The position numbers were made by a program, and so were the translations under genes. Below the pieces are notes generated by a model. That model made no database searches, was not told the DNA's origin, and worked only from the letters and a program-made list of their open reading frames with translations. 64,000 bases of DNA from Chiridota heheva (taxonomy: Eukaryota; Echinodermata; Holothuroidea; Apodida; Chiridotidae), in contig JAIGNY010001864.1 of the NCBI GenBank assembly GCA_020152595.1, positions 669,501 to 733,500 on the forward strand, in the 5' to 3' direction. Positions 9,355-64,000 of the stretch are shown here, piece by piece (the first letter of the stretch is position 1; each line of letters begins with the position of its first letter).

Positions 9355-12050
9355 TGGACAAACTGTGTGTGAAGGACATAGGTATGAATTGTGTTATGAA
9401 AGACAAACTGTGTGTGAAGGACATAAGTATGAATTATGTTATGAAGTCATATGGACCGTCTTTGTGTGAAGGACATAAGTATGAATTATGTTATGAAGTC
9501 ATATATGTTGAAGGACATAAGTATGAATTATGTTATGAAGTCATATGGACAAACTGTGTGAAGGACATAAGTATGAATTATGTTATGAAGTCATATGGAC
9601 CGTCTTTGTGTGAAGGACAAGTATGAACTTGGTTATGAAGTCATATGGACAAATTGTGTGAAGGACAAGTATGAATTATGTTATGAAGTCATATGGACAG
9701 TCTTTGTGTGAAGGACATAAGTATGAATTATGTTATGAAGTCATATGGACAAACTGTGTGAAGGACATAAGTATGAATTATGTTATGAAGTCATATGGAC
9801 AGTCTTTGTATGAAGGACATAAGTATCAACTTGGTTATGAAGTCATATGGACAAACTTTGTGTGAAGGACATAAGTATGAATTATGTTATGAAGTCATAT
9901 GGATGGACATAAGTATGAATTATGTTATGAAGTCATATGGACAAACTGTGTGAATTATGTATGAATTATGTTATGAAGTCATATGGACTTTGTGTGAAGG
10001 ACATAAGTATGAATTATGTTATGAAGTCATATGGACAGTCCTTGTATGAAGGACATAAGTATCAACTTGGTTATGAAGTCATATGGACAAATTGTGTGAA
10101 GGACATAAGTATGAATTATGTTATGAAGTCATATGGACCATCTTTGTGTGAAGGACATAAGTATGAATTATGTTATGAAGTCATATGGACAAACTGTGTG
10201 AAGGACATAAGTATGAATTATGTTATGAAGTCATATGGACAGTCTTTGTATGAAGGACATAAGTATCAACTTGGTTATGAAGTCATATGGACAAATTGTG
10301 TGAAGGACATAAGTATGAATTATGTTATGAAGTCATATGGACAGTCCTTGTATGAAGGACATAAGTATCAACTTGGTTATGAAGTCATATGGACAAATTG
10401 TGTGAAGGACATAAGTATGAATTATGTTATGAAGTCATATGGACAGTCTTTGTGTGAAGGACATAGATATGAATTATGTTATGAAGTCATATGGACAAAC
10501 TGTGTGAAGGATAGAAGTATAAATTATGTTATGAAGTCATATGGACAAATTGTGTGAAGGACATAAGTATGAATTATGTAATGAAGTCATATGGACAAAC
10601 TGTGTGAAGGACAAGTATGAATTATGTTATGAAGTCATATGGACAGTCCTTGTATGAAGGACATAAGTATGAATTATGTTATGAAGTCATATGGACAGTC
10701 TTTGTGTGAAGGACATAAATATGAATTATGTTATGAAGTCATATGGACAGTCCTTGTATGAAGGACATAAGTATGAATTATGTTATGAAGTCATATGGAC
10801 AAATTGTGTGAGGGACATAAGTATGAATTATGTTATGAAGTCATATGGACCGTCTTTGTGTGAAGGACATAAATATGAATTATGTTATGAAGTCATATGG
10901 ACAAACTGTGTGAAGGACATAAAGTATGAATTATGTTATAAAGTCATATGGACAAACTGTGAAGGACATAAGTATGAATTATGTTATGAAGTCATATGGA
11001 CAGTCTTTGTGTGAAGGACATAAGTATGAATTATGTTATGAAGTCATATGGACAAATTGTGTGAAGGACATAGACATGAATTATGTTATGAAGTCATATG
11101 GACAAACTGTGTGAAGGATAGAAGTATAAATTATGTTATGAAGTCATATGGACAAATTGTGTGAAGGACATAAGTATGAATTATGTTATGAAGTCATATG
11201 GACAGTCTTTGTGTGAAGGACATAAGTATGAATTATGTTATGAAGTCATATGGACAAACTGTGTGAAGGACATAAGTATGAATTATGTTATGAAGTCATA
11301 TGGACAAACTGTGTGAAGGACATAAGTATGAATTATGTTATGAAGTCATATGGACAAATTGTGTGAAGGACATAAGTATGAATTATGTTATGAAGTCATA
11401 TGGACAAATTGTGTGAAGGACATAAGTATGAATTATGTTATGAAGTCATATGGACAGTCTTTGTGTGAAGGACATAAGTATGAATTATGTTATGAAGTCA
11501 TATGGACAAACTGTGTGAAGGACATAAGTATGAATTATGTTATGAAGTCATATGGACAGTCTTTGTGTGAAGGACATAAGTATGAATTATGTTATGAAGT
11601 CATATGGACAAACTGTGTGAAGGACATAAGTATGAATTATGTAATGAAGTCATATGGACAAACTGTGTGAAGGACAAGTATGAATTATGTTATGAAGTCA
11701 TATCGACAGTCTTTGTGTGAAGGACATAAATATGAATTAGGTTATGAAGTCATATGGACAAACTGTGTGAAGGACATAAGTATGAATTATGTTATGAAGT
11801 CATATGGACAAACTGTGTGAAGGACAAGTATGAATTATGTTATGAAGTCATATGGACAGTCTTTGTGTGAAGGACATAAGTATGAATTATGTTATGAAGT
11901 CATATGGACAAACTGTGTGAAGGACATAAGTATGAATTATGTTATGAAGTCATATGGACAGTCTTTGTGTGAAGGACATAAGTATGAATTATGTTACGAA
12001 GTCATATGGACAAACTGTGTGAAGGACATAAGTATGAAGTGCGTTATGAA
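9355..12050. repeat. Satellite of alternating 50/52-bp units, about 53 copies
   Basis: The common core is AAGTATGAATTATGTTATGA followed by AGTCATATGGAC. Units then carry either AAACTGTGTG (50 bp) or AGTCTTTGTGTG (52 bp). A 50+52 pair is 102 bp, a multiple of three, so paired units create open frames such as 9937-10557 (MNYVMKSYG and EGHKYELCYEV motifs). Wherever two 50-bp units are adjacent the frame is lost. No start context, splice site or family match supports a protein. Confidence 0.93.
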
Positions 12051-12425
12051 GGAAGAACAAGTTCTAGTAAAAAAAGGTGTTGCATCGAAGTGTAAATAAA
12101 GTTGAACTCAATTTAGATAGAAATGAGTGGGTGCGCTAACACCTCCCCTCATTTTGGAACAACATGAAAGAGATGTGCAAAGGCTGGCAATTAATATGCT
12201 GGCAATATGTTGGAAAGTCATGCAAATTAAAATGTCTTATCCCAGTCAATTCATTCATAAGCAAGAAACAGGTCAGATCAAGAGCTGATGCAGAGTGGTT
12301 ACAATCAAGCATTGCTAGCTGCTAGTGGTGCATCATTTTGTACAGTGTGCTTCTTGTAATTGAGCCTTGTATCAGTTAAATTGTGTTTAGTTTTCTTTAA
12401 GTGCTTATGTTAATACAAGCAGAGA

Positions 12426-14988: not shown

Positions 14989-15170
14989 AGATGAGAATTG
15001 ACCTTTCAGAAAATGAAATGTGTCCCCATTCTGGCCCTATACTTGGACCTTTCGCCCTTCTAATAAAACTTTTATTTTTATGGATCTCTTTTCACTTTTA
15101 TAAGTTGTATGAACCTTTTCTATAAGGTGTGCAGGACCTCAGATTTAGGTAATTGTGGGAGCTCCATCTA

Positions 15171-18100
15171 CTGTAGCCAAGCCCATTGAGCGTATTGTTA
15201 ACAAACAGTAGCCAAGCCCATTGAGCGTATTGTTAACAAACAGTAGCCAAACTTATTAGGCGTATTGTTAACAAACAGTAGCCAAGCTTATTGAGCGTAT
15301 TGTTAACAAACAGTGGCCAAGCTTATTGAGCGTATTGTTAACAAACAGTGGCCAAGCTTATTGAGGGTATTGTTGACAAACAGTAGCCAAGCTTATTGAG
15401 CGTATTGTTAACAAACAGTAGCCAAGCTTATTGAGCGTATTGTTAACAAACAGTAGCCAAGCTTATTGAGCGTATTGTTAACAAACAGTAGCCAAGCTTT
15501 TTGAGCGTATTGTTGACAAACAGTAGCCAAGCTTATTGAGTGTATTGTTAACAAACAGTAGCCAAGCTTATTGAGCGTATTGTTGACAAACCGTAGCCAA
15601 GCTTATTGAGTGTATTGTTAACAAACAGTAGCCAAGCTTATTGAGCATTTCGTTAACAAACAGTAGCCAAGCTTATTGAGCGTATTGTTAACAAACAGTA
15701 GCCAAGCTTATTGAGCATATTGTTAACAAACAGTAGCCAAGCTTATTGAGCATATTGTTAACAAACAGTAGCCAAGCTTTTTGAGCGTATTGTTGACAAA
15801 CAGTAGCCAAGCTTATTGAGCATATTGTTAACAAACAGTAGCCAAGCTTATTGAGCATATTGTCAACAAACAGTAGCCAAGCTTATTGAGCATATTGTTA
15901 ACAAACAGTAGCCAAGCTTATTGAGCATTTCGTTAACAAACAGTAGCCAAGCTTATTAGGCGTTTCGTTAACAAACAGTAGCCAAGCTTATTGAGAGTAT
16001 TGTTAACAAACAGTAGCCAAGCTTATTGAGCGTATTTTAACAAACAGTAACCAAGCTTATTGAGCGTATTGTCAACAAACAGTAGCCAAGCTTATTGAGC
16101 ATTTCGTTAACAAACAGTCGCCAAGCTTATTGAGCGTATTGTTAACAAACAGTAGCCAAGCTTATTGAGCATATTGTTAACAAACAGTAGCCAAGCTTAT
16201 TGAGCGTATTGTTAACAAACAGTAGCCAAGCTTATTGAGCGTATTGTTAACAAACAGTAGCCAAGCTTATTGAGCATTGTTGACAAACAGTAGCCAAGCT
16301 TATTGGCGTTTGTTAACAAACAGTAGCCAAGCTTATTGAGAGTATTGTTAACAAACAGTAGCCAAGCTTATTGAGCGTATTTTAACAAACAGTAGCCAAG
16401 CTTATTGAGCGTATTGTTAACAAACAGTAGCCAAGCTTATTGAGCATTTCGTTAACAAACAGTACCCAAGCTTATTGAGCGTATTGTTGACAAACAGTAG
16501 CCAAGCTTATTGAGCGTATTGTTAACAAACAGTAGCCAAGCTTATTGAGCATATTGTTAACAAACAGTGGCCAAGCTTATTGAGCATATTGTTAACAAAC
16601 AGTAGCCAAGCTTATTGAGCATTTCGTTAACAAACAGTAGCCAAGCTTATTAGGCGTTTCGTTAACAAACAGTAGCCAAGCTTATTGAGCGTATTGTTAA
16701 CAAACAGTAGCCAAGCTTATTGAGCGTATTTTAACAAACAGTAGCCAAGCTTATTGAGCGTATTGTTAACAAACAGTAGCCAAGCTTATTGAGCATTTCG
16801 TTAACAAACAGTAGCCAAGCTTATTAAGCATTTCGTTAACAAACAGTAGCCAAGCTTATTGGCGTTTGTTGACAAACAGTACCCAAACTTATTGAGCATA
16901 TTGTTAACAAACAGTAGCCAAGCTTATTATTGTAGCGTATTGTTAACAAACAGTAGCCAAGCTTATTGAGCGTATTGTTGACAAACAGTAGCCAAGCTTA
17001 TTGAGTGTATTGTATTGTTAACAAACAGTAGCCAAGCTTATTGAGTGTATTGTATTGTTAACAAACAGTAGCCAAGCTTATTGAGCGTATTGTTGACAAA
17101 CAGTAGCCAAGCTTATTGAGCGTATTTTCAACAAACAGTAGCCAAGCTTATTGAGCGTACTGTTGACAAACAGTAGCCAAGCTTATTGAGCATATTGTTA
17201 ACAAACAGTAGCCAAGCTTATTGAGCATATTGTTAACAAACAGTACCCAAGCTTATTGAGAGTATTGTTAACAAACAGTAGCCAAGCTTATTGAGCATAT
17301 TGTTAACAAACAGTATCCAAGCTTATTAGGCGTTTGCGTTAACAAACAGTAGCCAAGCTTATTGAGCGTATTGTTAACAAACAGTAGCCAAGCTTATTGA
17401 GTGTATTTTAACAAACAGTAGCCAAGCTTATTGTTAACAAACAGTAGCCAAGCTTATTAAGCGTATTGTTAACGAAGAGTAGCAAGCTTATTGAGCGTAT
17501 TGTTAACAAACAGTAGCCAAGCTTATTGAGCATATTGTTGACAAACAGTAGCCAAGCTTATTGAGCGCATTGTTAACAAACAGTAGCCAAGCTTATTGAG
17601 CATATTGTTAACAAACAGTAGCCAAGCTTATTGAGTGTATTTTAACAAACAGTAGCCAAGCTTATTAAGTGTATTGTTTACAAACAGTAGCCAAGCTTAT
17701 TGAGCGTATTGTTTACAAACAGTAGCCAAGCTTATTGAGCATATTGTTGACAAACAGTAGCCAAGCTTATTGAGCGTATTGTTGACGAACAGTAGCCAAG
17801 CTAATTGAGCGTATTGTTAACAAACAGTAGCCAAGCTATTTGAGCGTATTGTTTACAAACAGTAGCCAAGCTTATTGAGCATATTGTTGACAAACAGTGG
17901 CCAAGCTTATTGAGCATATTGTTGACAAAGCAGTAGCCAAGCTTATTGAGCGTATTGTTGACAAACAGTAGCCAAGCTTATTGAGCGTATTGTTGACAAA
18001 CAGTAGCCAAGCTATTTGAGTGTATTGTTTACAAATAGTAGCCAAGCTTATTGAGCGTATTGTTAACAAACAGTAGCCAAGCTTATTGAGCGTATTGTTA

Positions 18101-18488
18101 ACAAACAGTAGCCAAGCTTATTGAGCGTACCGTTAACAAACAGTAGCCAAGCTTATTGAGCATATTGTTAACAAACAGTAGCCAAGCTTATTGAGCGTAT
18201 TGTTAACAAACAGTAGCCAAGCTTATTGAGCGTATTGTTAACAAACAGTAGCCAAGCTTATTGAGCATATTGTTAACAAACAGTAGCCAAGCTTATTGAG
18301 CGTATTGTTTACAAACAGTAGCCAAGCTTATTGAGCGTATTGTTTACAAACAGTAGCCAAGCTTATTGAGCGTATTGTTGACAAACAGTAGCCAAGCTTA
18401 TTAAGCGTTTCGTTAACAAACAGTAGCCAAGCTATTTGAGCGTATTGTTAACAAACAGTAGCCAAGCTATTTGAGCGTATTGTTAACA
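15171..18488 (+). repeat. 35-bp satellite, about 95 copies, derived from LINE RT code
   Basis: The unit starts CAGTAGCCAAGCTTATTGAG and continues CGTATTGTTAACAAA. Read in frame, a unit gives VAKLIERIVNKQ, the conserved block that precedes QDYLSEN in CR1/L2-like RTs. LINE sequence flanks both sides: TSDLGN before and QDYLSENDLYAEM after. Most units hold a HindIII site (AAGCTT) and many the palindrome TTGTTAACAA. Common variants are CATATTG, CATTTCG, TTGACAA and TTTACAA. The first two units have AAGCCCATT instead of AAGCTTATT. Confidence 0.93.
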
Positions 18489-19220
18489 ACGGGTTCAAGA
18501 TTATCTCTCAGAAAATGACCTATATGCAGAAATGTTATCTGTATATCGAGCCCATTATAGTACCGAAACTGCTCAACTCTATGTGCAGAATTGTCTGCTC
18601 TGTGCTCTTGATGAGCGCAAAGATGCTCTTTTAGTTCTATTGGACTTTCCTTCCGCTTTTGACACCATCAACCACCAAATATTGCTTCAACGCCTAAAGG
18701 AAAGATATGGTGTAAATGGTGTCGCATTTCATTGGATGGAATCCCATTTGTCCAGTCGTACCCAATCTGTCATAGATGATAATAATTTGTCACATAAGAG
18801 TTTTCCTCATCTCAGGAGTTCCACAAGGCTCAGTACTGGGACCATTGCTGTACACCCTGTACGTGGCTCCATTGCTGTACACCCTGTACGTGGCTCCATT
18901 GCTGTACACCCTGTACGTGGCTCCATTGCTGTACACCCTGTACGTGGCTCCATTGCTGTACACCCTGTACGTGGCTCCATGGCTCCATATCATGACTTAA
19001 TGTTGCATCAAATGTTCAGACTGCAGTTTATGCAGATGACATTCAGTTATTCATGTCTTTTAAGCCTAATCAACGCTCTAATGCTGTCACGAAACTTCAA
19101 AATTGTATCGTTGGTGTCAAATAATGGGCTATATCAAACAATTTAATAATTAATGACTCAAAGATAGAAATTCTCCATGCTACTTCCCAAATTATCTCCT
19201 CAACAATCCCACTAATTTCA
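18489..19220 (+). pseudogene. RT palm region of the CR1/L2-like LINE (inactive)
   Basis: A frame shift of one or two bases lies at the array edge, after which QDYLSENDLYAEM, then HYSTETAQLYVQN, then LVLLDFPSAFDTINHQILL are read. The first catalytic aspartate is in LLDFPSAFD near 18644. A further shift precedes GVPQGSVLGPLLYTLYVAPL (about 18808-18868). After the 27-bp array a third frame gives VQTAVYADDIQLFMSFK with an intact YADD at 19029-19040. All palm motifs survive individually, but not in one frame. Confidence 0.88.
18842..18976 (+). repeat. 27-bp tandem repeat inside the RT palm, 5 copies
   Basis: Five exact copies of a unit beginning CCATTGCTGTACACC encode PLLYTLYVA in frame. The block normally occurs once after GVPQGSVLG in LINE RTs. 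The unit length is a multiple of three, so the frame is kept through the array. Confidence 0.95.
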
Positions 19221-19496
19221 AATTGGACTAGATTAAGACCATGCCTTCTCCTTGTGTCAAAACCTTAGGAGATATTGGATTTACATTTTGATATGAAACA
19301 ACACGTTAATGCTGTTTGTAAATCATCTTTTTATGCTCTACGCAACATCAGCCAATTAAGGAAATTTTAAACAAATGAAATAATTACTAGGTTGATATGT
19401 TCCTGCATTATTCCCACACTACTATTGTAACTCGCTTCTATTTGGCCCCCCTGACTCAAAAAACTACAGACTGTTTAGAGCTCTGCTGCCCGGCTC
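19221..19496 (+). pseudogene. RT thumb/C-terminal region of the LINE
   Basis: Fragments in alternating frames read KTLGDIGF, MKQHVNAVCKSSFYALRNIS, ITRLICSCIIPTLL and LQTV, then SSAARLITRS, in the order expected after the palm of CR1/L2-like RTs. Several stops and frame changes are present. Confidence 0.75.
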
Positions 19497-20418
19497 ATAA
19501 CCCGTTCATCTCGATATGATCACATATCACCAGTTCTTCAATCACTTCATTACCCGTTCATCCCGATGTGATCACATATCACCAGTTCTTCAATCACTTC
19601 ATAACCCGTTCATCCCGATATGATCACATATCACCAGTTCTTCAATCACTTCATTACCCGTTCATCCCGATATGATCACATATCACCAGTTCTTCAATCA
19701 CTTCATAACCCGTTCATCCCGATGTGATCACATATCACCAGTTCTTCAATCACTTCATTACCCGTTCATCCCAATATGATCACATACCACCAGTTCTTCA
19801 ATCACTTCATTAACCGTTCATCCCGATGTGATCACATATCACCAGTTCTTCAATCACTTCATTACCCGTTCATGATCACATATCACCAGTTCTTCAATCA
19901 CTTCATACCGTTCATCCCGATGTTCATATCACCATTTCTTCAATTTCATTAACCGTTCATCCCGATATGATCACATATCACCAGTTCTTCAATCACTTCA
20001 TTAACCGTTCATCCCGATGTGATCACATATCACCAGTTCTTCAATCACTTCATTACCCGTTCATCGCGATATGATCACATATCACCAGTTCTTCAATCAT
20101 TTCATTACCCGTTCATCCTGATGTGATCACATATCGCTAGTTCTTCAATCACTTCATTACCCGTTCATCCCGATATGATCACATATCACCAGTTCTTCAA
20201 TCACTTCATTACCCGTTCATCCCGATATGATCACATATCACCAGTTCTTCAATCACTTCATTACCCGTTCATCCCGATATGATCACATATCACCAGTTCT
20301 TCAATCACTTCATTACCTGTTCATCCCGATATGATCACATATCACCAGTTCTTCAATCACTTCATTACCCGTTCATCCCGATATGATCACATATCACCAG
20401 TTCTTCAATCACTTCATT
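19497..20418 (+). repeat. 52-bp satellite inside the LINE C-terminus, about 18 copies
   Basis: The unit contains TACCCGTTCATCCCGATATG, then ATCACATATCACCAGTTCTT, then CAATCACTTCAT. In one frame the first copy reads RSSRYDHISPVLQSLH, the conserved region directly before HWLPV. LINE code resumes directly after the array with HWLPVR at about 20412. Two shortened units occur near 19870-19945. The unit length is not a multiple of three, so each copy shifts frame. Confidence 0.93.
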
Positions 20419-21060
20419 GGCTTCCAGTAAGATAGCGATCAGTGTACAAGCTGCTGCTCCTTAGGTACAAATCTCAACACACTCTTGCTCCTGGATACAT
20501 TAAGCAGTTAATACACCAATATCATCCTCAACGTCAGCTTCACTCCTCTACAAAATGTCCTCTGGCTGCCAGGCATCATCCGAACACAAACGTTTTGTGT
20601 GAAAGGGCCTTCATCTCGCAGCACCATCTCGTTGGAACAATGTACCATCTTCAATTCGCAACGCACCATTTGTTAATTCTTTCAAATGTCTTCTAAAAAC
20701 TCAAAATATTTATTTATTTAGTATCAGGCATAATTATTCAACTCTGCTTTTATTATTGTGTTTATTTGCATAAAGTTGCTACAGTGTATGAACTGATGAC
20801 TTTTTTTACTTCGTATGCTCAGTCAGGGAGTGTGACAGGATGTGACTGTATATGGATATAGGGAGGGAAGCCTTATAGGACATGGATGGGGGCCAGTCAG
20901 GACATTGGATAGAATATATACCATGTGGTGGTATGCACCAAGGGCTATATCAGGCATGATTATTTGACTCCGTCTTTTTTTTTCTTATTCAACAAGTCAT
21001 TTGCATATTAGTTATTATAACTGACAGACGTTTATACATAGTGTGCTCAATCAGGGACTG
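20419..21060 (+). pseudogene. C-terminal end and start of 3' UTR of the LINE
   Basis: HWLPVR, then VYKLLLLRYKSQHTLAPGYI, then SRWNNVPSSIRNAPFVNSFK are readable with shifts, ending near 20720. Downstream an imperfect duplication pairs 20723-20840 with 20948-21070; both contain TATCAGGCAT(A/G)ATTATT and a GCTCA(G/A)TCAGGGA block. It lies between the coding end and the next array. Confidence 0.75.
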
Positions 21061-21069
21061 TGATAGCTA

Positions 21070-21935
21070 GGATGAGACTTCTTATAGAGCCTATGGGATG
21101 TCATGTGAGACATAGGGTGGGATGCCATGTGGGACATCATGTGAGACATAGGGTGGAATGCCATGTGGGACATCATGTGGGACATGTGAGACATGCCATG
21201 TGGTGGGATGGCATGTGGGACATGGGATGGGATGCCACATGGGACATGGGATGGGATGCCATGAGTAACACAGAGTGTGACATAGGTTCGGATGCCATGT
21301 GTGACATAGTGTAGGAAGGCATGGGATGTGATGCCATGTTGGACATAAAGTAGGATGTCATTGGGACATTGGGAGGGATACCTTGTAAAACATGATGGGA
21401 TATAATGTTGGACATCAGGTGAAATGCTTGTGGGAAGCCACTGATGCAGGGCATAAGGTGGGATGCCATGGGGGACAGGGAGAGATGCCGTGTGGGATAC
21501 AGGGAGGGATGCCATGTGACATAGGGAGGACATGGGACAGGGAGGGATGCTATGTGGGACATGGTTAGATTAATGTGGGACGGAGGATGGGATTTATCTA
21601 GGACATAGGGTGGGATACCATGTGAGTCACAGGGTGGAATGCCATGTGGGACATTTGGTGGAATACCATGTTGGACATATGGTGGAGTGCCATGTGGGAC
21701 ATGGTGGAATGCCATGTGGGAGATGTTGTCAAATGCCATGTGGGACATGGGATGTCATGTGAGACATGGGGTGGGATGTCATGTGGGAAATGGGGTGGGA
21801 TGTTATGTGGGAGATATGGTGGAATGCCATGTGGGACAAGGGATGGGATGTGAGGTCATGTGGGACATGGGGTGGGATGCCATGAGGGACATGGGATGCT
21901 ATGTGGGACTTATTGTAAGATGCCATTTTTGTAAT
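21070..21935 (+). repeat. Degenerate GGGATGCCATGTGGGACAT array in the LINE 3' UTR
   Basis: Units of variable length are built from ATGCCATGTGGGACAT and GGTGGGATG, with many substitutions and small indels. The variable spacing gives short open frames on both strands (for example CHVGHG-type and MSHMASHPM-type repeats), which are artefacts. LINE tail sequence resumes after it. Confidence 0.88.
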
Positions 21936-22159
21936 TAGCCGGGTCATATGATATGGGTGTCAATTTGCTTGTGCATGCGAACCATGATGGTATTTACTGT
22001 TCTAGTACATCAATTAGTCGAACTTTTTTTGTAAATTATGCATGATTGTTGTGATCTTGGTCAAGCGCTTTGAGGCCTTAGAAAAAAGTATTATATTAAT
22101 CAATTCTTCTTATTATTATTATTATCATCATCATTATTGTCATTATTATTATCATGATG

Positions 22160-59722: not shown

Positions 59723-62700
59723 GATTATGGTCAGAAAACTGACTTCTCTGATTATGGTCAGAAAACCGACTTCTCTGATTATGGTCAGAAAACCGACTTC
59801 TCTGATTATGGTCAGAAAACTGACTTCTCTGATTATGGTCAGAAAACTGACTTCTCTGATTATGGTCAGAAAACTGACTTCTCTGATTATGGTCAGAAAA
59901 CCGACTTCTCTGATTATGGTCAGAAAACTGACTTCTCTGATTATGGTCAGAAAACTGACTTCTCTGATTATGGTCAGAAAACTGACTTCTCTGATTATGG
60001 TCAGAAAACCGACTTCTCTGATTATGGTCAGAAAACTGACTTCTCTGATTATGGTCAGAAAACTGACTTCTCTGATTATGGTCAGAAAACCGACTTCTCT
60101 GATTATGGTCAGAAAACTGACTTCTCTGATTATGGTCAGAAAACTGACTTCTCTGATTATGGTCAGAAAACCGACTTCTCTGATTATGGTCAGAAAACTG
60201 ACTTCTCTGATTATGGTCAGAAAACTGACTTCTCTGATTATGGTCAGAAAACTGACTTCTCTGATTATGGTCAGAAAACTGACTTCTCTGATTATGGTCA
60301 GAAAACTGACTTCTCTGATTATGGTCAGAAAACTGACTTCTCTGATTATGGTCAGAAAACTGACTTCTCTGATTATGGTCAGAAAACTGACTTCTCTGAT
60401 TATGGTCAGAAAACCGACTTCTCTGATTATGGTCAGAAAACCGACTTCTCTGATTATGGTCAGAAAACCGACTTCTCTGATTATGGTCAGAAAACTGACT
60501 TCTCTGATTATGGTCAGAAAACCGACTTCTCTGATTATGGTCAGAAAACCGACTTCTCTGATTATGGTCAGAAAACCGACTTCTCTGATTATGGTCAGAA
60601 AACCGACTTCTCTGATTATGGTCAGAAAACTGACTTCTCTGATTATGGTCAGAAAACTGACTTCTCTGATTATGGTCAGAAAACTGACTTCTCTGATTAT
60701 GGTCAGAAAACCGACTTCTCTGATTATGGTCAGAAAACCGACTTCTCTGATTATGGTCAGAAAACCGACTTCTCTGATTATGGTCAGAAAACGACTTCTC
60801 TGATTATGGTCAGAAAACTGACTTCTCTGATTATGGTCAGAAAACCGACTTCTCTGATTATGGTCAGAAAACCGACTTCTCTGATTATGGTCAGAAAACC
60901 GACTTCTCTGATTATGGTCAGAAAACCGACTTCTCTGATTATGGTCAGAAAACTGACTTCTCTGATTATGGTCAGAAAACTGACTTCTCTGATTATGGTC
61001 AGAAAACTGACTTCTCTGATTATGGTCAGAAAACCGACTTCTCTGATTATGGTCAGAAAACCGACTTCTCTGATTATGGTCAGAAAACCGACTTCTCTGA
61101 TTATGGTCAGAAAACCGACTTCTCTGATTATGGTCAGAAAACTGACTTCTCTGATTATGGTCAGAAAACTGACTTCTCTGATTATGGTCAGAAAACCGAC
61201 TTCTCTGATTATGGTCAGAAAACCGACTTCTCTGATTATGGTCAGAAAACTGACTTCTCTGATTATGGTCAGAAAACTGACTTCTCTGATTATGGTCAGA
61301 AAACCGACTTCTCTGATTATGGTCAGAAAACCGACTTCTCTGATTATGGTGAAAACTGACTTCTCTGATTATGGTCAGAAAACCGACTTCTCTGATTATG
61401 GTCAGAAAACTGACTTCTCTGATTATGGTCAGAAAACTGACTTCTCTGATTATGGTCAGAAAACCGACTTCTCTGATTATGGTCAGAAAACTGACTTCTC
61501 TGATTATGGTCAGAAAACGACTTCTCTGATTATGGTCAGAAAACTGACTTCTCTGATTATGGTCAGAAAACTGACTTCTCTGATTATGGTCAGAAAACCG
61601 ACTTCTCTGATTATGGTCAGAAAACTGACTTCTCTGATTATGGTCAGAAAACCGACTTCTCTGATTATGGTCAGAAAACCGACTTCTCTGATTATGGTCA
61701 GAAAACCGACTTCTCTGATTATGGTCAGAAAACCGACTTCTCTGATTATGGTCAGAAAACGACTTCTCTCTCTGATTATGGTCAGAAAACCGACTTCTCT
61801 GATTATGGTCAGAAAACCGACTTCTCTGATTATGGTCAGAAAACCGACTTCTCTGATTATGGTCAGAAAACCGACTTCTCTGATTATGGTCAGAAAACCG
61901 ACTTCTCTGATTATGGTCAGAAAACCGACTTCTCTGATTATGGTCAGAAAACCGACTTCTCTGATTATGGTCAGAAAACTGACTTCTCTGATTATGGTCA
62001 GAAAACTGACTTCTCTGATTATGGTCAGAAAACTGACTTCTCTGATTGGTCAGAAAACTGACTTCTCTGATTATGGTCAGAAAACCGACTTCTCTGATTA
62101 TGGTCAGAAAACCGACTTCTCTGATTATGGTCAGAAAACCGACTTCTCTGATTATGGTCAGAAAACTGACTTCTCTGATTATGGTCAGAAAACTGACTTC
62201 TCTGATTATGGTCAGAAAACCGACTTCTCTGATTATGGTCAGAAAACCGACTTCTCTGATTATGGTCAGAAAACCGACTTCTCTGATTATGGTCAGAAAA
62301 CCGACTTCTCTGATTATGGTCAGAAAACTGACTTCTCTGATTATGGTCAGAAAACTGACTTCTCTGATTATGGTCAGAAAACTGACTTCTCTGATTATGG
62401 TCAGAAAACCGACTTCTCTGATTATGGTCAGAAAACCGACTTCTCTGATTATGGTCAGAAAACCGACTTCTCTGATTATGGTCAGAAAACCGACTTCTCT
62501 GATTATGGTCAGAAAACTGACTTCTCTGATTATGGTCAGAAAACTGACTTCTCTGATTATGGTCAGAAAACTGACTTCTCTGATTATGGTCAGAAAACCG
62601 ACTTCTCTGATTATGGTCAGAAAACTGACTTCTCTGATTATGGTCAGAAAACTGACTTCTCTGATTATGGTCAGAAAACCGACTTCTCTGATTATGGTCA

Positions 62701-64000
62701 GAAAACTGACTTCTCTGATTATGGTCAGAAAACTGACTTCTCTGATTATGGTCAGAAAACCGACTTCTCTGATTATGGTCAGAAAACTGACTTCTCTGAT
62801 TATGGTCAGAAAACCGACTTCTCTGATTATGGTCAGAAAACTGACTTCTCTGATTATGGTCAGAAAACTGACTTCTCTGATTATGGTCAGAAAACCGACT
62901 TCTCTGATTATGGTCAGAAAACCGACTTCTCTGATTATGGTCAGAAAACTGACTTCTCTGATTATGGTCAGAAAACTGACTTCTCTGATTATGGTCAGAA
63001 AACTGACTTCTCTGATTATGGTCAGAAAACTGACTTCTCTGATTATGGTCAGAAAACTGACTTCTCTGATTATGGTCAGAAAACTGACTTCTCTGATTAT
63101 GGTCAGAAAACTGACTTCTCTGATTATGGTCAGAAAACTGACTTCTCTGATTATGGTCAGAAAACTGACTTCTCTGATTATGGTCAGAAAACTGATTATG
63201 ACTTCTCTGATTATGGTCAGAAAACCGACTTCTCTGATTATGGTCAGAAAACCGACTTCTCTGATTATGGTCAGAAAACCGACTTCTCTGATTATGGTCA
63301 GAAAACCGACTTCTCTGATTATGGTCAGAAAACCGACTTCTCTGATTATGGTCAGAAAACCGACTTCTCTGATTATGGTCAGAAAACCGACTTCTCTGAT
63401 TATGGTCAGAAAACCGACTTCTCTGATTATGGTCAGAAAACTGACTTCTCTGATTATGGTCAGAAAACTGACTTCTCTGATTATGGTCAGAAAACTGACT
63501 TCTCTGATTATGGTCAGAAAACCGACTTCTCTGATTATGGTCAGAAAACCGACTTCTCTGATTATGGTCAGAAAACCGACTTCTCTGATTATGGTCAGAA
63601 AACTGACTTCTCTGATTATGGTCAGAAAACTGACTTCTCTGATTATGGTCAGAAAACCGACTTCTCTGATTATGGTCAGAAAACTGACTTCTCTGATTAT
63701 GGTCAGAAAACTGACTTCTCTGATTATGGTCAGAAAACCGACTTCTCTGATTATGGTCAGAAAACCGACTTCTCTGATTATGGTCAGAAAACCGACTTCT
63801 CTGATTATGGTCAGAAAACTGACTTCTCTGATTATGGTCAGAAAACTGACTTCTCTGATTATGGTCAGAAAACCGACTTCTCTGATTATGGTCAGAAAAA
63901 ACCGACTTCTCTGATTATGGTCAGAAAACTGACTTCTCTGATTATGGTCAGAAAACTGACTTCTCTGATTATGGTCAGAAAACCGACTTCTCTGATTATG
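59723..64000 (+). repeat. 27-bp satellite, about 158 copies, continuing past the window
   Basis: The unit is GATTATGGTCAGAAAACTGA plus CTTCTCT, with one dominant variable base (AAAACT or AAAACC). Frame changes occur at about 60791, 61351, 61517, 61759, 62046 and 63895; a 6-bp insertion near 63195 keeps frame. Two plus frames lack stops within a unit: MVRK(L/P)TSLI and DYGQKTDFS. The long open frames (358 and 622 codons) follow from the 27-bp period and have no supporting promoter, splice or family evidence. The array length is a lower bound. Confidence 0.97.

Follow-up and report, generated by a model that had tools for sequence, protein, structure and literature searches.

INTRODUCTION

In human, at least 23% of minisatellites and satellites have been reported to derive from transposable elements (TEs; PMC3389668). 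There, 300 of 7,276 cases were flanked by direct repeats of 5–20 bp, mostly of 7 bp, and 6,817 were left unexplained by two slippage models. A review (PMC6947457) sets out the same slippage model and gives Alu, B1, and long terminal repeat (LTR) cases. The birth of a minisatellite is hard to study, since the single-copy ancestor is usually lost. Here we describe a locus in a 64-kb stretch of Chiridota heheva DNA (C1853:669501-733500, within a 1.1-Gb assembly; hereafter the window), in which a dead copy of a long interspersed nuclear element (LINE) has been enlarged about five-fold by three tandem arrays of its own code, with units of 35, 27, and 52 bp, and by an inserted element.

We consider it likely that the three arrays were seeded by slippage and then expanded within the dead LINE copy, into which the further element was inserted. 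The case belongs to the known TE-derived kind of minisatellite and, striking as it is, is largely ordinary. What is notable is the genome-wide array load in our sample, together with two LINE sites, one of 27 bp and one of 25 bp, at which arrays recur.

RESULTS

A truncated LINE copy carries three arrays of its own code

Non-LTR retrotransposons, or LINEs, carry a reverse transcriptase (RT) domain, occur as dispersed families, and end in a simple-repeat 3′ tail. The copy in the window has dispersed relatives in the assembly (the best 40 of 172 candidates yielded 94 matches; an array-free LINE query gave 678 candidates, 40 of which were scored), an RT remnant whose match to Pfam RVT_1 (E = 3.8e-4, 20.7 bits) lies under the curated cut-off of 29.6, and, at 22110-22155, a TTA-type tail found by Tandem Repeats Finder (TRF) that is the LINE's own. 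It is a 5′-truncated, dead copy. For comparison we fetched, with their flanks, 20 of the 38 places drawn from the first listing of relatives (L009-L028). Against three reference copies among these (L010, L012, and L014), LINE homology starts within the 35-bp array, upstream of which no LINE can be recognised, and ends near 22145. Positions 15085-15172 are not recognisable as LINE in the same comparison, a correction to the start at 15085 given in a preliminary description of the locus. TRF confirmed the tandem arrays of the region as real rows, and alignment to the other copies put the single-copy LINE beneath the 7 kb at about 1.4 kb (1376 projected columns).

Table 1. Parts of the LINE copy and of the element inserted in it, in window positions
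Feature	Positions	Strand	Copies	Matches	Basis
35-bp array, LINE code (start of RT remnant)	15173..18489	+	94.9	91%	TRF
RT remnant, open stretch enclosing the 27-bp array	18487..19146	+			Pfam RVT_1; aligns to L012
27-bp array, palm site	18842..18984	+	5.3	99%	TRF
52-bp array, LINE code	19495..20418	+	18.1	92%	TRF
LINE segment, last 52-bp unit to 3′ part	20362..20713	+			Alignment to L012 5195-5583
Separate 1.3-kb element inserted in LINE 3′ part	20721..22006				LINE continuous there in L012 and L014
Degenerate ~24-bp array inside the inserted element, not LINE code	21094..21909				TRF
LINE 3′ end	22009..22145	+			Alignment to L012 5582-5707

Each of the three units is present once in other copies of the family: the 35-bp unit in L014 (33/35 bases), the 27-bp unit in L013 (26/27), and the 52-bp unit in both L010 and L014 (51/52). 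When all rotations of the units were matched to the LINE bodies of other copies, the best identities were 0.94, 0.96, and 1.00 for the 35-, 27-, and 52-bp units, respectively, vs. 0.66, 0.67, and 0.58 for reversed-sequence controls, which bears out the earlier statement that three of the arrays are plainly LINE code. Consisting of head-to-tail units within the range of 10–100 bp, in 5.3 to 94.9 copies, these arrays are minisatellites, and as pieces of a TE that are single-copy elsewhere, they are TE-derived.

Two of the arrays were found at this locus only. A search of the whole assembly with the 35-bp junction pattern (≤3 mismatches) returned 72 forward matches and 0 reverse, all of them here, and the 52-bp junction pattern returned 14, again all at this locus. 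Units differ on average by 9.1% in the 35-bp array and by 4.3% in the 52-bp array, values that may be set beside the median terminal branch of the LINE copies, 7.7%. A 42-bp array overlapping the 52-bp unit had 50 matches in the assembly, all in L011 and L016. These two share 93% identity across 9.1 kb; one of them lies on a 21-kb contig, and they are likely to be alleles or a recent duplication. If they are allelic, the unequal lengths of their 42-bp arrays (2151 and 2073 bp) would be of the kind seen in hypervariable minisatellites (variable number tandem repeats, VNTRs), in which array length varies from one allele or individual to another.

Matching bases often bound the sites of future arrays

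In single-copy LINE sequence, the stretches that were to become units are often bounded by matching bases, and from this we infer slippage or template switching as the probable seeding event. At the 27-bp site, CCATTGC occurs twice at 27-base spacing, giving a run of 7 in seven of the ten copies examined; at the 52-bp site, TCAT gives a run of 4 in five of ten copies, the other five having a run of 2. Junction runs were 2–7 (median 3, 11 copies) at the 25-bp site described below and 2 in seven of eight copies at the 42-bp site. With sites and null handled alike, each scored by its longest run within 3 bases, runs of at least 7 occurred in 0.2% of null junctions and of at least 4 in 4.9%. The sum over the five junctions, 16 (7+4+2+3+0), had a probability of P = 0.004, and a sum of 14, with the 52-bp site taken as 2, had P = 0.019.

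In the sequence of events that we favor, a stretch of LINE code lying between two short direct repeats would first have been duplicated by slippage or template switching, and unequal exchange or further slippage would have let the duplication grow to 5–95 units. The LINE copy would most likely have gained its three minisatellites after insertion. In a separate event, the 3′ part would have received a dispersed element of 1.3 kb that brought a 24-bp array inside it, and the 25-bp array would additionally have spread to at least five loci.

Arrays recur at the 27-bp and 25-bp sites

By TRF, the 27-bp palm site is expanded not only in the window but also in L021 (68×), L023 (47×), and L009 (3.1×). 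The unit pattern (≤3 mismatches) had 111 matches in all in the assembly, part of which were listed; among the matches listed, 3 of 17 places were tandem and the remaining 14 had one match each, L009 being too diverged to show. All three L009 units carry the same four changes relative to the usual 27-bp unit, so this array very likely grew locally and on its own. The five window units are alike and all carry T9G, and the window array therefore probably also grew on its own, from one local unit. The LINE tree is star-like, the 27-bp state costs 4 changes on it, and 0 of 200 bootstrap trees united the four expanded copies.

Two side observations may be added. In the 27-bp array of the window and at L021:6701-7278, a unit-wide T to G seems to extend an inverted repeat inside the unit; the lengthening was judged by eye, and with two cases only it may be due to chance. 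At L047:1-412, directly upstream of the palm site in another LINE copy, lies an 18-bp array of 22.9 copies (ACTCACCACAGGAGTTAT) that looks LINE-derived by eye.

Besides its 27-bp array, L021 carries a 25-bp LINE-code array of 23 copies. The 25-bp junction pattern had 73 matches at five loci, on C2, C2134, C2386 (L021), C2588, and C3018 (L045). What these matches have in common is a G at the fourth position of the unit (G4), which in most single copies is a T. A census that took in both the site and its right flank (≤3 mismatches) covered 24 places, and G4 was present at 3 of 3 array-bearing places vs. 1 of the 21 others, 18 of which had T and two A (Fisher p = 0.002). L025 is a further single-copy G4, outside the census, and the first unit of the L045 array retains T. 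Probably the 25-bp array had a single origin and then reached several copies, or else G4 favors expansion; the candidate routes are retrotransposition of an array-bearing source, exchange between copies, or G4-favored expansion.

Independent births or a single origin

The recurrence of these arrays raises the possibility that those of the 27- and 25-bp sites, if not all, were born once in a source LINE and that retrotransposed transcripts spread them, with changes in length thereafter. We hold this explanation to be possible but the less probable one. It is favored by the 25-bp arrays, with one unit and one G4 at five loci and with the association found in the census, and by the 27-bp arrays, for which a single clade of the four copies was not rejected by the approximately unbiased (AU) test (p = 0.111; 0.121 with more rows). 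It also draws on the units of L021 and L023, which differ by 2.94 and 2.52 bases within the two loci and by 2.91 between them, and on the pairing of these two copies at 89/72 in a larger tree. Against it stand the 25-bp carriers L021 and L045, which were rejected as sisters (AU p = 0.008), with L045 grouping with the array-free L010 (95/90). The bootstrap trees, which never united the four 27-bp copies, the 14 of 17 listed places with one match each, and the restriction of the 35- and 52-bp junctions to this locus point the same way.

Several results nevertheless weigh against separate, slippage-seeded births, beginning with the clade of four 27-bp copies that the AU test allowed. T9G is found outside the window in 8 of 64 L021 units. 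L021 and L023 as one clade were not rejected (AU p = 0.351), and since their units are equally different within and between loci and the copies pair in the larger tree, the 27-bp arrays of these two may well share one origin. The shared G4 of the 25-bp arrays argues that some arrays are not independent births. As for the seeding event, the 35-bp site had a junction run of 0–1 in three copies, that is, almost no microhomology. A laxer null for the junction runs had given P ~0.0002 and was rejected; the like-treated null reported above is weaker and concerns five junctions only. Direct repeats of at least 7 bases at a spacing of 15–100 number 6–23 per copy in seven array-free copies. A structural trigger was not found, the unit hairpins in single-copy LINE being ordinary.

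Two candidate causes were rejected in the course of this work. Direct repeats are not a sufficient cause, given unused 7-base repeats in 7 of 7 array-free copies examined. A hairpin trigger was discarded on unit folding energies, whose median percentile was 0.27–0.34 for the 27-, 35-, and 52-bp units and 1.0 for the 25-bp unit.

For the 25-bp site, we also considered that interlocus conversion or recombination moves the minisatellite between old LINE copies already in place, or that a single T-to-G switch triggers expansion, readings that we judge unlikely. Either would explain the five loci with one unit despite the non-sister position of L021 and L045, and interlocus conversion, if true, would mean that LINE paralogues exchange arrays without retrotransposition. 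Ranked by identity among the pairs compared, the upstream flanks of L021 and L045 were 9th of 231 over 60 bases, 120th of 190 over 120 bases, and 16th of 114 over 318 bases; the downstream flanks were 6th of 208 over 60 bases, 13th of 210 over 120 bases, and 65th of 167 over 426 bases. Four of these six spans are high and two are ordinary, and no clear exchange tract was seen in the flanks of the 25-bp arrays of this pair.

The LINE and its region hold arrays at an ordinary density

The preliminary description had suggested that the LINE, or the region in which it lies, is unusually prone to tandem duplication. We counted as arrays all rows with a period of at least 10 and at least 3 copies, merging overlapping rows. 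Eight random 5-kb stretches held 13 arrays in 40 kb (0.325/kb, or 0.386 per single-copy kb; 15.7% coverage), and the 64-kb window held 21 (0.328/kb; 26% coverage). The random stretches are the first 5 kb of 10-kb stretches, 40 of which were drawn from contigs carrying LINE matches; we used the first ten draws minus two, one on a 21-kb LINE contig and one a repeat draw on a contig already used. Across 146 kb of flanks at 18 LINE loci there were 35 (0.239/kb, or 0.259 per single-copy kb). Outside the window, LINE bodies held five LINE-code arrays (in L009, L011/L016 counted once, L021 twice, and L023), and 15 of the 20 fetched copies had none of these. Counted as five to six arrays in 19.8 kb over 19 independent copies, this is 0.25–0.30/kb, where 5.1–7.6 arrays would be expected in 19.8 kb of LINE body.

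The LINE-code threshold was an identity of 0.80 with a unit of at least 17. The sixth body array is a 12-bp row (×3.2) in the LINE of L028 (5513-5551), below the unit-length limit. Three arrays were dropped despite passing the threshold: a 20-bp array that precedes the LINE in both L011 and L016 (0.85, control 0.70), the 24-bp TTA-type tail of L011 (0.83, control 0.88), and a 17-bp CATCATCC-type array beyond the LINE 3′ end in L028 (0.88, control 0.76). Adding three 3′-tail rows (L011, L017, and L028) brings the body count to 9. A 38-bp array between two LINE copies in L013 was excluded from both the LINE and the flank counts, L011 and L016 were treated as one locus, and L015, which overlaps L013, was excluded from the flanks. 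L045-L048 were picked non-blindly: the LINE match of L045 and L046 has a gap, and L047 and L048 have the 27-bp site in single copy. With the 25-bp array of L045 and the 18-bp array of L047 there are 7 arrays in 22.6 kb outside the window, a figure kept out of the main density.

For the window copy itself, whose 1.38 kb of LINE gave rise to three arrays, the Poisson P is 0.006–0.017. Sliding windows of 1.4 single-copy kb with at least three arrays made up 5.9% of those in random stretches and 2.4% of those at LINE loci; these windows overlap and come from few stretches. This copy, which was chosen for its array count, is a modest outlier.

A special proneness of the LINE sequence or of the chromosome region is therefore distinctly improbable. 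In its favor are the Poisson value just given, the higher coverage in the window than in random stretches (26% vs. 16%), and the reuse of identical sites in several copies. However, LINE bodies carry 0.25–0.30 arrays/kb vs. 0.26–0.39 per single-copy kb elsewhere, and the window equals the random stretches in array density, leaving little support for a prone region. An equal frequency of arrays in non-LINE DNA, named beforehand as the result that would speak against a prone LINE, is what we found in this sample, and the idea is largely refuted on it. The LINE looks like an ordinary array substrate in a genome that, as sampled, is loaded with minisatellites. That the arrays were inflated or invented by the assembler is very improbable: they are known here from the assembly alone, but units vary within arrays, single-copy precursors exist elsewhere, and the near-duplicates L011 and L016 both carry the 42-bp array, at different lengths (2151 and 2073 bp).

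Outside the window, seven arrays crowd a 10-kb stretch at L021:372-9653; only two of them lie in the LINE, and the clustering is thus not bound to LINE code. A TTA array near the end of another LINE copy (L048:752-1343, 197 units) seems to be a greatly expanded 3′ tail.

The fourth array lies in an inserted element

The LINE is interrupted in its 3′ part by a separate element (Table 1), which by its ends, TC after A and CTAG before T, would span 20724-22005. Positions 4-1289 of its 1291 match L026:6197-7570 reversed (71% identity over 1437 columns), a stretch that lies beyond the LINE match of that copy. Both copies of the element start with TCAGGCAT after A and end with CTAG before T. Helitrons have a 5′ TC and a 3′ CTRR with a hairpin nearby, insert between A and T, and make no target duplication; autonomous ones have a rolling-circle replicase. 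We take the ends of the inserted element to be Helitron-like, which makes it a candidate for that family by the termini of two copies only, the comparison comprising these two. In the same ends, again from two copies, it resembles non-autonomous Helitron-like elements with internal tandem repeats.

The array within this element had been described as a degenerate 20-bp array of the LINE. It is degenerate, but a period of about 24 describes it best, the TRF rows having periods of 12–53. Its units matched LINE bodies at 0.64 and 0.53 vs. 0.56 and 0.49 for the control, which is near control level, and with respect to the window LINE it does not qualify as TE-derived. Because the insert interrupts the LINE and recurs at L026, the array arrived inside another dispersed element. 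All four arrays of the preliminary description are thus real and three are made of LINE code, and repeated birth in one copy holds for those three; the fourth, sitting in a separate insertion, does not count among four independent expansions of one dead LINE within 7 kb.

Other parts of the window were noted in passing. Upstream of the LINE, 50-bp units with a higher-order period of 102 bp make up an array of 2.65 kb (9402-12051) that is not LINE code (0.60 vs. control 0.54). Open stretches at 313-2011 look by eye like another decayed LINE-type protein; Pfam gave no match in the two pieces searched. The window ends within a further 27-bp array (158 copies, 59723-64000), in which both strands have open reading frames several hundred codons long.

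DISCUSSION

This LINE family offers dozens of paralogues, single-copy and expanded at the same site. Because both states coexist in an array-rich genome, the rate of minisatellite birth, the role of microhomology, and the spread of arrays become measurable. In the open literature, searched mostly at the level of titles and the starts of abstracts, we found no description of recurrent arrays at one LINE site.

The closest likeness is to human TE-derived minisatellites (PMC3389668): the units are pieces of a TE, a local duplication would have preceded expansion, and the 7-bp flanking repeats reported for some of them match those of the 27-bp site in length. The present case differs in that one and the same site is single-copy in some paralogues of a LINE and expanded in others, in that one copy holds three arrays, and in lying in a different, array-rich genome.

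The slippage models (Haber and Louis 1998; Taylor and Breden 2000), as relayed in PMC3389668 and PMC6947457, fit the 27-bp site, which has bounding direct repeats and a partial terminal unit. The 35-bp array differs from them in having almost no junction repeat. Where a precursor unit bounded by direct repeats of at least 5 bp is called for, seven of ten copies have 7 bases at the 27-bp site, while the 52-bp site has 2–4 and the 35-bp site 0–1. With Alu-derived minisatellites (Jurka and Gentles, cited in PMC3389668), our arrays share the seeding by a retroelement's own short direct repeats that we propose; they differ in that the source is the RT remnant of a LINE, not a short interspersed nuclear element (SINE), and in that several sites in one family have given rise to arrays.

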